A stretch of DNA of 40,286 nt, taken from positions 1 through 40,286 of the forward strand of contig JAUSIC010000023.1 of the NCBI GenBank assembly GCA_030648285.1, read 5' to 3'. Position 1 is the first letter of the stretch. Each line of letters begins with the position of its first letter. The position numbers and the translations under genes were made by a program. The notes beneath the pieces were generated by a model. The model had not been told where the DNA came from, did no database searches, and was given only the letters and a program-made list of their open reading frames with translations. The stretch is from Nanobdellota archaeon (GTDB taxonomy: Archaea; Nanobdellota; Nanobdellia; Pacearchaeales; GW2011-AR1). This document shows, piece after piece, positions 10,031 to 28,993 of this stretch.

Positions 10031-10164
10031 GCGCTGATAGTTCAGTGGTAGAATGTCTGCCTTCCAACAAGAAGAACCATATGGTTCTTCCTTGGACCAT
10101 CTCCTTTCAAAGGGAATAATCCGGAAGACAGCAGACGACTCGGGTTCGAATCCCGATCGGCGCA
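10031..10164 (+). tRNA. tRNA-Gly (anticodon TCC) with a 63-base intron
   Basis: Acceptor GCGCTGA/TCGGCGC, A73, D stem GTTC/GAAT, anticodon stem TCTGC (10056-10060)/GCAGA (10131-10135), T arm TCGGG-TTCGAAT-CCCGA. The anticodon is TCC at 10063-10065. The intron (10067-10129) is at the canonical 37/38 site: CTTC pairs perfectly with GAAG (four-pair central helix), with 3-base bulges CAA and ACA. The intron itself contains a strong hairpin around GAAGAACC-ATAT-GGTTCTTC. Mature length is 71 bases. Confidence 0.93.
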
Positions 10165-17914: not shown

Positions 17915-18709
17915 TTAAGTGTATCCCAATGCTCTTAACTTATCCATAACTATTTCTCTTACAATTCCTCTTCCTGCTCTTTCATGGGCATTTGGGTCTA
18001 AGTTTTTTTCTGTGCAGTGAGTGCATCCCAGTGAAGTATATCCTTGCTTGTAAATGGGATTGCATTCTATATTAAATCTATTAACATATTCCATTATATC
18101 TTCTCTTCTCCAAAACAAAAGAGGATGTACTCTAAAATGAGCTGGATTTTTTCTTGGAGAGAAAAAAACCTCTTTGGCTCTTTCTTCATGTTCTACTCCT
18201 CTTAAACCAACTAGAAAGGCACCAAACTTGAAATCTCCAATCGCTTTCATCATTGGAGATATTTTGTGATAATCACAACAAGTAGTTGTAAATTCAGGAG
18301 TTTTTAATCCTAAATTTTGTTTGAATTCTTCAAATTTATTTTTTTCTGCCATAACTGCAGTATATTTAGTCAATCTCCAGTCTTTTCTTATCTTTTCTAT
18401 GAACTGATATGTTTCTGGAAATTCATGCTGGGTATCAACAAAAACAATAGGAATGTCTGACTTTATCTGCAGAGTAATATGCAATAGTATAAGGCTGTCT
18501 GTGCCTCCACTGAATCCCAAGCCTATATTTGGGAATTTTTCAATCGCTTCTTTTATTATCTCTTTGGATTTTTTTATTTTTTCATCCAACGGCAAATCTA
18601 TGAGGACTCTTGCTTCAGGAATCATCAAATCTTCACATCTTTGTGTCCTTATCTTAGTAAACCTATCACCAACATTATTTATATCAATGAACTCACCCTC
18701 ATTTGTCAT
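17915..18709 (-). CDS. PAPS reductase/CysD-family PP-loop protein with four conserved cysteines and an LGY tail
   Basis: PP-loop ATPase-fold protein of 264 residues. SGGTDS (67-72) is the nucleotide loop. Cys144-Cys145 (TTCCDYHK) with Cys229 and Cys232 (GCTHC) form the CC...CxxC pattern that binds [4Fe-4S] in assimilatory APS reductases; the C-terminal ECGxH redox motif is absent. HPLLFWRREDIMEYV and GYTSLGC resemble CysD/CysH. It could act in sulfate activation, reduction or tRNA/cofactor thiolation. It ends MDKLRALGYT, a tail shared with both RHH-like proteins of the window. TATA at 18733-18739 and a 20-bp palindrome precede it. Confidence 0.85.
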   Translation of the reverse strand: MTNEGEFIDINNVGDRFTKIRTQRCEDLMIPEARVLIDLPLDEKIKKSKEIIKEAIEKFPNIGLGFSGGTDSLILLHITLQIKSDIPIVFVDTQHEFPETYQFIEKIRKDWRLTKYTAVMAEKNKFEEFKQNLGLKTPEFTTTCCDYHKISPMMKAIGDFKFGAFLVGLRGVEHEERAKEVFFSPRKNPAHFRVHPLLFWRREDIMEYVNRFNIECNPIYKQGYTSLGCTHCTEKNLDPNAHERAGRGIVREIVMDKLRALGYT

Positions 18710-18710
18710 G

Positions 18711-18730
18711 TATAATTATGCATAATTATA
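18711..18730. promoter_or_regulatory. Perfect 20-bp palindrome between TATA box and start of the PAPS-reductase-like gene
   Basis: TATAATTATGCATAATTATA reads the same on both strands. It fills the space between TTTAAAT (18733-18739) and the ATG at 18709. A dimeric repressor bound here would cover the transcription start. The RHH-like gene directly upstream (18764-18991) is the obvious candidate regulator, as RHH proteins bind palindromes; this link is inferred. Confidence 0.6.
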
Positions 18731-18763
18731 GTATTTAAACATTCTTATGCTATAACAGACATA

Positions 18764-19026: not shown

Positions 19027-20202
19027 TTAGATTTCTTGAGTCATGTTTCTTTTTTCTTCAGGATCTTTTTCTAAATCATATTCTTCAACACCCTGATGAT
19101 GATATCCCTTGCAGAGGTTGCAGAAATTATTTTGGGAAATAATTATCTTTTTACTTTTTGTTCTGATTGTTTTGATATCCTCACATAATCCATCGACCGA
19201 AAAAATTTCATCTCTTATAGGAATATTGTTAATTATCAGGGGCAAGAAAGACTTTCCGTCGAACTTTTCTTCTGTTTGCAGATGGAGATAATCTAAAATG
19301 CTCGGAATTATATCCACATTTTGAACAAATCCGTTTATTTCTTTTGCACTTATTCCAGGAAAATGGGTAATCATAGGAGTGTGTATTGAACCATCATATA
19401 ATCCAGAAGAACTGAAATATATCTCGTGTTCTGTTAAGTTGGTTCCGTGGTCGCCCATTACAAAAAGTATGGTGTCATCAAATAAGTTTCTCGATTTCAA
19501 AAAATCATAAATTCTACCAATTTCTTTATCAACATCTATTATAGACAAGTCATATTTTTCTTCCATTCCTTGTAAAGAATATAACTTTTTTCCAATAATT
19601 CTTTTTCTTAAGTATTCTCTCTGCTTCTCTCCTTTGATGCTTCCAAGCATGTTCTCAATATCTGTTTCATCGCCTTCTCCCGAATATTTTGTGTTTGGAA
19701 AAGGAAAATGAGTGTCCCAAAAATGAAGAAGCAAAAAAAATGGTTTTTGAGCTTGAGACATTTTTTCCATAGCCAAGTCAGTTATTTCTTTTGCAGGTCT
19801 AAAAGGTGCTAGTGGTTCCACATAATCCTCTTTTTCTTCTCCTTCCCCATAATAATCAAATCCTTTCTTGAACCACATTCCTATCCAGTCGATTGCTATT
19901 GTTTCATAACCAAGGTTTTTTAAGTACTCTGGAAACCAAAATTTAGTTACTTCATTGAATTTGTTTATCTCTTCTGGTTTTGTATATGGAAGCTGATGAA
20001 TTATTCCATGATTACGGGAATATTTTCCGGTTAACATTGAAGTTACAGCAGGAGCAGTGGAATTTGAAGAAGAAAAATTATTTCTGAATAGTATGCTTTC
20101 TTTAGAAAGTATTTTTAAATTTTTATCTGTCTCTTTGTGATACCCAAATAAGCTTAAATTCTTTGGTCTCAAAGCATCAATGATAATAAAAATTATGTTC
20201 AT
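19027..20202 (-). CDS. Sulfatase-fold (alkaline phosphatase superfamily) protein with Thr at the nucleophile position
   Basis: Protein of 391 residues. Metal ligands are Asp9 (IIIDALRPKNLS) and the Asp-His of FVMGDHGTNLTEHEIYF. The active-site segment NSTAPAVTSMLTGKYSRNHG aligns with the sulfatase C/S-x-P-x-R-x4-TG signature, but the nucleophile is Thr49, which cannot become formylglycine; Thr nucleophiles are seen in phosphotransferases of this superfamily. A FCNLCKGYHH cluster precedes the usual EYDLEKDPEE end. There is no signal peptide. ATGA overlap with rmlB; it likely edits a glycan with phosphate or phospho-groups. Confidence 0.82.
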   Translation of the reverse strand: MNIIFIIIDALRPKNLSLFGYHKETDKNLKILSKESILFRNNFSSSNSTAPAVTSMLTGKYSRNHGIIHQLPYTKPEEINKFNEVTKFWFPEYLKNLGYETIAIDWIGMWFKKGFDYYGEGEEKEDYVEPLAPFRPAKEITDLAMEKMSQAQKPFFLLLHFWDTHFPFPNTKYSGEGDETDIENMLGSIKGEKQREYLRKRIIGKKLYSLQGMEEKYDLSIIDVDKEIGRIYDFLKSRNLFDDTILFVMGDHGTNLTEHEIYFSSSGLYDGSIHTPMITHFPGISAKEINGFVQNVDIIPSILDYLHLQTEEKFDGKSFLPLIINNIPIRDEIFSVDGLCEDIKTIRTKSKKIIISQNNFCNLCKGYHHQGVEEYDLEKDPEEKRNMTQEI

Positions 20203-26630: not shown

Positions 26631-28055
26631 ATGAAGGAAAAACCTAATATAATTTTTATAACCCTTGATGGTCTTCGGCCTAAAAACCTTAGTTGCTATG
26701 GATATTCAAGAAATACTTCTCCAAATATAGATTCTTTGGCTAAACAAGGAGTTCTTTTTGAAAACTTTTTTTCATCACATAATGTTACCATGAAATCTAT
26801 CTTGTCGATTCTTGGAGGAAGGCATGTTTTAGGACAGGATTTAGGTTCACATTATACTAAAGAAGAAATAAAAACTTTCTTTGAGACAGGAGGAATCTTA
26901 TTTCCAGAAGTGCTAAAGAAAAATGGGTATAAGACTTATTGTCTGAAAAAATTATATGGTTATCAAAAAACTGGTTTCGATTATTATTTTAAACAGGATG
27001 CTCAAGAAAAATCAAAGAAATGGAATTTAATAAGATTTCTGAAAAAAATCCCCTTATTGTATACATTACCCAAGTTTTTTCTCCACAATTTCTATTTTAT
27101 TCCAAAAAAGATAGAAAATAAAATGAGATTTAATAATAGTGGGGAAATAGCAACTAAAAAAGCAATAGAAATAATAAGACAGAACAAAAAAAATAATTTC
27201 TTTATGTGGGTAGAATATTCTGATACCCATGTACCATATGTATCTTCTTATAAATTTAGTGAAAAATTTAAATCTAATAAAAAGAGCCCAAATTTTTTTG
27301 ATATACTAAAGAATAAAAAAGGGTATAACAAAACAGATATAAGTTTCTTGAAGGGCTGTTGGAAATCTAAAGATACTGTTGAGGATATAATTGCCAAGTA
27401 TGATAATGCCTTGTCTTACGATGATTTTCTTGTTGGAAAAATAATTGATACACTTCAAGAAGAAAATTTATTGAAGAATACAATTATTTTTTTGTTCGCA
27501 GATCATGGAGAAAGCTTAGGAGAACATGGATTGTATTTTACTCATGAAGGACTGTATGATGTTACATTCAACATCCCTCTTATAATTTCAGGCAATTTAA
27601 TACCAAGAAATAAAAGAGTTAAAACTCTGACCCAATTGGAAGATATAGTTCCAACTGTTCTCGATTTAGCAGGAATAAATCATGACCCTTCTTCTTTTGA
27701 TGGAGAAACTCTTTCACCACTATTAGTTGGAAAAGAGAAGAAGATGAGAGAATCCATCTTTATTGAAGAATCTAGCTGCGGATTAAAAAGAAGAGGAATA
27801 AGAACAGAAAAATACAAATATGTTGAATCTTCAGAAAAAGAATTCTCTGTTTGCACAATGTGCGGCACTTGTCACGGGGATATAATCGATTTATTTAATT
27901 TAAAAAAAGATAAAGAAGAAACAATCAGCTTAGCTAAAAAAGATAAAGAGCTCCTTATAAAAATGAAAATAGAACTAGAAAGAAAGATAAAGGATATGAA
28001 AACAATGAATGAGAAAAGAAAAATAAAAAGTTTTATAAGTAAAATAGGTAAGTAG
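26631..28055 (+). CDS. Sulfatase-fold protein 2 with Thr at the nucleophile position
   Basis: 474-residue alkaline phosphatase-superfamily protein, paralogous to the one at 19027-20202. Asp13 (FITLDGLRPKNLSCYGYSRN) and the Asp-His of FLFADHGESLGEHGLYFTHE are metal ligands. The signature segment is NVTMKSILSILGGRH, with Thr53 aligned to the formylglycine Cys of sulfatases. A CTMCGTCHG cluster precedes DLFNLKKDKEE, as in the paralog. There is no signal peptide. It is leaderless from TTTAAAAAT at about 26601 and is followed by FkbM and an RHH-like gene. Confidence 0.82.
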   Translation: MKEKPNIIFITLDGLRPKNLSCYGYSRNTSPNIDSLAKQGVLFENFFSSHNVTMKSILSILGGRHVLGQDLGSHYTKEEIKTFFETGGILFPEVLKKNGYKTYCLKKLYGYQKTGFDYYFKQDAQEKSKKWNLIRFLKKIPLLYTLPKFFLHNFYFIPKKIENKMRFNNSGEIATKKAIEIIRQNKKNNFFMWVEYSDTHVPYVSSYKFSEKFKSNKKSPNFFDILKNKKGYNKTDISFLKGCWKSKDTVEDIIAKYDNALSYDDFLVGKIIDTLQEENLLKNTIIFLFADHGESLGEHGLYFTHEGLYDVTFNIPLIISGNLIPRNKRVKTLTQLEDIVPTVLDLAGINHDPSSFDGETLSPLLVGKEKKMRESIFIEESSCGLKRRGIRTEKYKYVESSEKEFSVCTMCGTCHGDIIDLFNLKKDKEETISLAKKDKELLIKMKIELERKIKDMKTMNEKRKIKSFISKIGK

Positions 28056-28061
28056 AATAAG

Positions 28062-28787
28062 ATGATAGATAAATTAAGGCAAAAGTGGATTCAGTATAAT
28101 GATTTTACATTAAGAGAAATTATTAAGCTTTTAAATGCAAAAATATCTGGACGTATTTTGTTGCACTGTGCATACTGTATGATTGCTCAGAGAATAATAA
28201 GAGAACCAATAAAAACAGTAATTGACATCGGAGCATATGATGGAGAATATTCAAAATGTGCCAAATATGTTCTTCCTTCAGCAAAAATATATGCATTTGA
28301 ACCAACAGAAATCTGCAAGAAAATTAGTGGAAGAGACATAACTGCTTTTAATTTTGGATTATGGGATAAAACAGGCAAAGGAGTTTTTTATCAAACATTT
28401 GATTTGAATACAGGAATTCCTTGTTGTGATAGTTCTTTCTTTAAGACAAAGGATACGAAAAATAATGAAGGTTTTAAAAAAGTCATTATTGAAAGAAAAA
28501 GATTTGATGGATTGGATATTAAAATTGAAAGACCTTGTTTTGTAAAAGTAGATGCAGAAGGCGCAGAATATGAAGTCTTGAAAGGTTTTGGAAATAAATT
28601 AAAAGAAGTTGATGTGATACAGTTAGAATACCTCTTTGAAGAGAATTACAGCAGGCAAAACTTTATTAAAATAATTCAATTATTAAACAAGTACAACTTT
28701 CATGGTTTTTTCCAACCAATAACAACATGGCCAAAAGGAAAATTACCTCAGTCCAATGATTGGATATTTTTTAAATACGAAAAATGA
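28062..28787 (+). CDS. FkbM family methyltransferase
   Basis: SAM-dependent methyltransferase of 241 residues. The SAM loop is TVIDIGAYDGEYSKCAKYVL (about 52-71), with a following acidic strand AKIYAFEPTEI. The FkbM-specific CFVKVDAEGAEYEVLKGF (about 165-182) holds the conserved D-x-E-G-x-E. FkbM enzymes O-methylate sugars and polyketides, so sugar methylation is the likely role. TTTATAAG at about 28032 gives a leaderless start inside the end of the preceding gene. The RHH-like gene overlaps its stop (ATGA). Confidence 0.9.
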   Translation: MIDKLRQKWIQYNDFTLREIIKLLNAKISGRILLHCAYCMIAQRIIREPIKTVIDIGAYDGEYSKCAKYVLPSAKIYAFEPTEICKKISGRDITAFNFGLWDKTGKGVFYQTFDLNTGIPCCDSSFFKTKDTKNNEGFKKVIIERKRFDGLDIKIERPCFVKVDAEGAEYEVLKGFGNKLKEVDVIQLEYLFEENYSRQNFIKIIQLLNKYNFHGFFQPITTWPKGKLPQSNDWIFFKYEK

Positions 28788-28993
28788 CAAGTAAAATAAC
28801 TATCTCCCTACCAGATAATCTAAGGGAAAAATTAGAAGAAAAAATAAAAGAGACAGATTTTAAGTCCATAGAAGATTATATTTTATATGTGTTAAAACAA
28901 ATGGTTTCTGTTGATTCTAAGGAAAAAGTAACTTATTCTGATGAAGATGAAGCTGCTCTCAAAAAAAAGCTTAAAGAAATGGGCTATCTTTAA
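28784..28993 (+). CDS. Small ribbon-helix-helix-like protein 2 with an MGYL tail
   Basis: 69 residues. The ribbon SKITISLPDNLREKLEEKIK and helix KSIEDYILYVLKQMVSV resemble CopG/Arc folds. The tail DEAALKKKLKEMGYL parallels the RHH-like protein at 18764-18991. Its ATG overlaps the FkbM stop by four bases (ATGA), so it is coupled to the sulfatase-fold 2/FkbM operon. It runs 23 bases into the 3' end of the opposite-strand aminotransferase gene. Confidence 0.82.
   Translation: MTSKITISLPDNLREKLEEKIKETDFKSIEDYILYVLKQMVSVDSKEKVTYSDEDEAALKKKLKEMGYL

Follow-up and report, generated by a model that had tools for sequence, protein, structure and literature searches.

The window analysed here, a whole 40,286-nucleotide stretch of contig JAUSIC010000023.1 from a Nanobdellota archaeon, carries on its minus strand a sulfatase-family gene (19027-20202; PF00884, 1.5e-45), which lies upstream of the gene for an RHH-type regulator, P0002 (18764-18991, minus strand), and is a partner in a conserved cluster. 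P0002 has 75 amino acids, with the strand sequence KYGTISLP and the C-terminal tail RLKNLGY, and is the putative binder of the operator described below. The putative regulated gene (17915-18709, minus strand) encodes a PAPS-reductase-domain protein of 264 amino acids with the tail KLRALGYT. This enzyme matched the PAPS_reduct domain (PF01507) with an E value of 4.9e-43 and scored below the cut-offs for CysH (148 bits vs 154 for PRK02090 and 119 vs 165 for TIGR00434). Its C-terminal end, HERAGRGIVREIVMDKLRALGYT, lacks the catalytic Cys motif (ECGLH) usually present there. From its sequence we consider the protein to be CysH/CysD-like and a putative sulfur enzyme. An APS kinase was not found in the window genome, which is about 85% complete, and our search returned no viral relatives of the gene. 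The CC and GCxxC cysteines of the window protein are missing from the PAPS-reductase-like homologues L016 (Aenigmatarchaeota) and L018 (Micrarchaeota), so that the same Fe-S cluster is not expected in these two proteins. A second, divergent RHH protein of the same family (69 amino acids; 28784-28993, plus strand) is encoded near a second sulfatase gene (26631-28055), and no TAATTA pair of the kind described below was found near either of these two genes, including the region in front of the second RHH gene.

The profile match of P0002 to Pfam RHH_1 had an E value of 0.0097 and 16.3 bits, below the cut-off of 20.5, and 5 of its 28 relatives matched the same profile at E ≤ 0.01 (best, 0.0005). 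In a monomer model with a mean pLDDT of 77, helices span residues 21-31 and 39-53, a C-terminal helix spans residues 61-72, and the conserved strand-like segment that precedes the helices (residues 14-20) was not assigned as a strand. A fold search returned CdbA, NikR, Arc, and ParD2 among the best folds, with E values of about 1. Profile and fold matches, both below formal cut-offs, are suggestive of an RHH domain in P0002.

The sequence TATAATTATGCATAATTATA at 18711-18730 is a perfect 20-bp palindrome and lies, as had been predicted, between the TATA box and the start codon of the PAPS-reductase-like gene. The TATA box, TTTAAATA, occupies 18732-18739 on the minus strand, at a position conserved in same-family homologues, and the ATG occupies 18709-18707, with the palindrome stopping 2 bp short of it. 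The span named in the original prediction, 18711-18739, corresponds to the palindrome plus the TATA box. The centre of the TATA box is about 26 bp from the ATG, a distance that predicts a leaderless start for this gene, with transcription probably beginning at or adjacent to the ATG. With such a start, the palindrome would sit just upstream, between the TATA box and the start, and not over the expected transcription start as had been proposed.

The palindrome is built from two self-palindromic ATAATTAT units. Their TAATTA cores, the start-codon-proximal one at 18713-18718 and the TATA-proximal one at 18723-18728, are separated by exactly 10 bp, or one turn of the helix, a phase that is conserved in relatives. 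The element spanning both cores, TAATTANNNNTAATTA at 18713-18728, is the sole exact match to TAATTA-N4-TAATTA in the window genome, and the genome search that had been suggested for the palindrome found a single copy of TATAATTATGCATAATTATA in 622 kb even when up to 3 mismatches were allowed. With one exact site only, a genome-wide regulon in this genome was ruled out, and control exerted through the site is predicted to be local because it is the only such site present. A second perfect 20-bp palindrome of the window, GAAGAACCATATGGTTCTTC, is located between ORFs at 10071-10090.

A stronger signal than symmetry is the 10-bp-phased TAATTA pair, which appears when relatives are compared. We found the RHH family in 47 of the 371 genomes of the phylum and read 50 regions, drawn from these 47 genomes and from PAPS-reductase relatives. 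All 5 same-family homologues read with their PAPS-reductase-like promoter keep 2-3 phased boxes and have lost the full palindrome; in one same-family genome, in which the gene order is sulfatase, RHH, and PAPS-reductase-like, the promoter reads TTTAAATAcccTAATTGTATATAATTATATATAATG. The outcome that had been named beforehand as refuting the prediction, loss of the palindrome in relatives, was thus literally observed, but the TAATTA pair was kept. Perfect palindromy was therefore ruled out as the conserved unit and is incidental. The conserved unit is TAATTA-N4-TAATTA with boxes exactly 10 bp apart, directly downstream of the TATA box.

To quantify the phasing, we scored the spacing of AATT-cored, TAATTA-like boxes in 80-bp upstream regions. 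An exact 10-bp spacing was present in 18 of 65 regions upstream of RHH, PAPS-reductase, CysD, and sulfatase genes versus 1 of 189 controls, and the sole control gene with such a pair is divergent from an RHH gene. Shuffling predicted 0.9 such regions and never gave more than 5 across 300 shuffles. None of the 65 target genes had a spacing of 9, 11, or 12 bp and one had a spacing of 8 bp, while a second peak occurred at 20 bp. An unbiased scan for triple boxes in the 371 genomes resulted in 14 sites from 12 genomes, 10 of which carry the RHH family (vs 47/371 overall); with the reversed pattern as a control, the scan returned 6 sites from 4 genomes. Eleven of the 14 sites abut the start of an RHH gene or, in G127, of CysD. 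Of the other three, one precedes a hypothetical gene in a genome with the RHH family, one is located upstream of an antitoxin-like gene, and one falls between ribosomal protein genes. At the locus L135 (G141:C12:46849-46874), a triple TAATTA directly precedes a gene for a 179-amino-acid protein to which no function is assigned; the genome also encodes the RHH family, and this gene is a possible further target. Overall, the box unit recurs almost only at the promoters of RHH, CysD/PAPS-reductase-like, and sulfatase genes. Some observations count against the reading as an RHH operator that is proposed below: a recognisable box pair is missing from about 40% of the RHH upstream regions outside Micrarchaeota, and the RHH gene's own promoter in the window genome has at best a degenerate copy. 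Among 112 operator-bearing genes, the candidate operator is located 3' of the TATA box in 83 of the 96 sites with a detectable TATA box, mostly by 0-5 bp.

In L018, titled Micrarchaeota, the same promoter position is occupied by GTTATAAC-AT-GTTATAAC, which is unique in that genome. Within a set of 245 Micrarchaeota genomes, 114 encode the RHH family. Most of these proteins have the strand KYTTITIP and a different putative operator, TAATGT-N4-ACATTA, in which two 6-bp boxes are again spaced by 10 bp but are inverted relative to each other. The TVSIP/TISIP-type RHH proteins within this set go with TAATTA-N4-TAATTA. Among 112 non-redundant upstream regions, the Ser (TVSIP) type was associated with 30 TAATTA and 2 TAATGT operators and the Thr (TITIP) type with 1 and 59, respectively. 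Exact TAATGT-N4-ACATTA sites were found in the 245 genomes at most 150 bp upstream of an RHH gene in 55 of 75 cases among the matches listed. Across the two phylum-level sets, these counts make a sound case that the operator type follows the RHH protein clade. On the protein tree, which is poorly resolved, the change of operator type amounts to essentially one or two clade switches, and with so few independent switches we did not assign specificity to the single S/T residue. Exact TAATGTTATAACATTA sites without an adjacent detected RHH gene (G698:C3:5647, G619:C18:8484, and G727:C46:13852) are possible extra targets in the Micrarchaeota set. A separate RHH subfamily (L061, L063, L065, L067, L068, L076, and L087) carries an additional RHH-like segment at its N-terminus, M.NRTTIQVS..LRKELR, and in this subfamily another conserved site, ATACATAATTNTATGTAT, is found immediately ahead of the RHH start codon.

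The genes around the RHH gene point to a common pathway. A PAPS_reduct gene is located within 1.5 kb of the RHH gene in 78 of 90 loci of the Micrarchaeota set and in 30 of 48 other loci, and the gene order is RHH, CysD, a TauE/SafE-family transporter (sulfite-exporter family), and CysN-like in L051 and RHH, CysD, and CysN-like in L063. Because PAPS_reduct, CysD, CysN, and TauE genes neighbour the RHH gene, we consider the family to be tied to sulfate activation, as judged by genomic context. The original prediction had suggested that sulfur or glycan state might switch the gene, and the sulfur part of this suggestion gains support from the relatives, which place the same RHH gene and putative operator before CysD, CysN, and a sulfite-exporter-family gene.

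Regulator and enzyme also end alike. An LGY C-terminus, typically within [KR]L[RK]xLGY, is present in 147 of 152 RHH proteins and in 91 of 113 adjacent CysD/PAPS-reductase-like proteins, and in the enzyme this tail corresponds to the normal end of CysD, which in 1zun reads MEEKKRQGY. We searched for co-variation between each RHH tail and the tail of its own neighbour and found no clear signal (6.05 of 11 positions identical versus 5.85 in shuffled pairs, maximum 6.12). It is conceivable, if doubtful, that the RHH proteins, as regulators of sulfate activation, imitate with their own tail the C-terminus of the enzyme they target. If the two tails shared a docking site, located for instance on CysN or the RHH dimer, the repressor would read the level or occupancy of the enzyme directly, and such mimicry, if true, would amount to feedback sensing without a small-molecule domain.

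We propose that the palindrome serves as operator for small RHH regulators of a family that extends across DPANN and is most likely bound by the neighbouring P0002 (18764-18991), a reading to which we give a probability of roughly 0.83. It is based on the 10-bp phase, the retention of the boxes in same-family homologues, their specificity for RHH-adjacent promoters, and an operator type that tracks the RHH clade, and it agrees with the original prediction both in treating the site as an operator and in naming the RHH-like neighbour as its likely partner. An operator serving a different protein, either the second RHH (28784-28993), which has the same strand type (TISLP), or an unrelated regulator, is improbable; regulators are able to act in trans, but in both phylum-level sets the candidate operator is found together with the adjacent RHH gene, and differences in operator sequence follow the RHH clade. 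Still less probable is that the palindrome arose by chance in AT-rich, easily melted sequence around a leaderless start and binds no protein. Symmetry alone is indeed weak evidence when the entire window is considered, because dinucleotide shuffles yield 0.12 palindromes of at least 20 bp per window at this base composition, at least one occurs in 11 of 100 shuffles, and the real window holds two; archaeal initiation regions are also AT-rich. Locally, however, the symmetry is rare (5 of 4000 shuffles of the surrounding 160 bp reach a 20-bp palindrome), and chance is opposed by the exact 10-bp phasing, which 188 of 189 control promoters and almost all shuffles lack, by the box pair that is retained in relatives, and by the genome-wide restriction of the boxes to RHH and CysD promoters. 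We ruled out that the palindrome acts at the RNA level, whether as a terminator or as a hairpin at the 5' end, since the 8-bp stem into which the 20-mer can fold (-1.9 kcal/mol) is in its context no better than shuffles (z, 0.82), a site upstream of the predicted leaderless start would not be transcribed, and the 3-4 phased boxes or non-palindromic spacers of relatives do not suit a hairpin.

The operator proposed for P0002 resembles those of known RHH proteins. MetJ, a small RHH methionine repressor with SAM as corepressor, binds tandem short palindromic met boxes, AGACGTCT, with an 8-bp period. The locus described here shares with MetJ a small RHH-like protein, tandem short palindromic boxes, and a connection to sulfur metabolism, but its TAATTA boxes have a 10-bp and not the 8-bp period of the met boxes, the SAM corepressor belongs to MetJ, and a PDB search gave no sequence match between P0002-type RHH proteins and MetJ. 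RelB of the E. coli relBE system binds as RHH dimers to neighbouring palindromic sites on one face of the DNA for autoregulation, and one of its sites, TTGTAATTACAA, has a TAATTA core (PMC2812701). RelB differs in its adjoining 12-bp half-sites and in its toxin partner, which acts as corepressor (PMC2812701), whereas the boxes studied here have a 10-bp phase and sulfate-activation and sulfatase genes as neighbours, with no toxin seen. F55 from SSV1, a Sulfolobus virus, and further RHH repressors of archaeal viruses bind tandem repeats that overlap the start or the BRE and occlude the promoter (PMC5569661). We propose a similar occlusion at tandem repeats for the archaeal RHH described here, which is cellular and associated with TAATTA boxes and sulfur genes, while F55 is viral and its repeats read ATAGATAGAGT. 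CdrS is likewise a short, single-domain archaeal RHH transcription factor; it is cellular, regulates ftsZ2, and has been reported absent from DPANN (PMC7439475), in contrast to the present family, which is found in DPANN and linked to CysD and sulfatase genes. DNA phosphorothioation by DndC/DndE also joins a PP-loop enzyme with RHH domains (PMC10853773), and we set this system aside for our locus, where the partners are CysD, CysN, TauE, and sulfatases. Like the multi-box operators of local or autoregulatory RHH repressors, the candidate operator is made of boxes that are repeated or palindromic and that lie at the promoter of the regulator gene or of a gene beside it.

The mode of action proposed here is repression, as in known RHH repressors. 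Each RHH dimer would insert its two-stranded sheet into one TAATTA box, and two dimers would cooperate in binding along the same face of the DNA. So bound, they could block TFB or RNA polymerase between the TATA box and the start of the leaderless promoter. The sulfur gene would then be repressed, rather than activated, as long as the RHH protein stays in place and unmodified, and its expression would be tied to the state of sulfate activation.

Searches of the literature for RHH proteins with sulfatases, archaea, and operators found no description of this RHH family or its operator, and both appear to be undescribed in the literature searched. To our knowledge, few transcription factor-operator pairs are known in DPANN archaea, most of which are uncultured. 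In the present case, a putative regulator, its operator, two variants of DNA specificity, and the target pathway (sulfate activation, PAPS-reductase-like enzymes, and sulfatases) can be read from sequence alone, and the matching of RHH clades to sites makes the system suited to in vitro work. The RHH-operator pair would give a handle on the control of sulfur chemistry in DPANN archaea.
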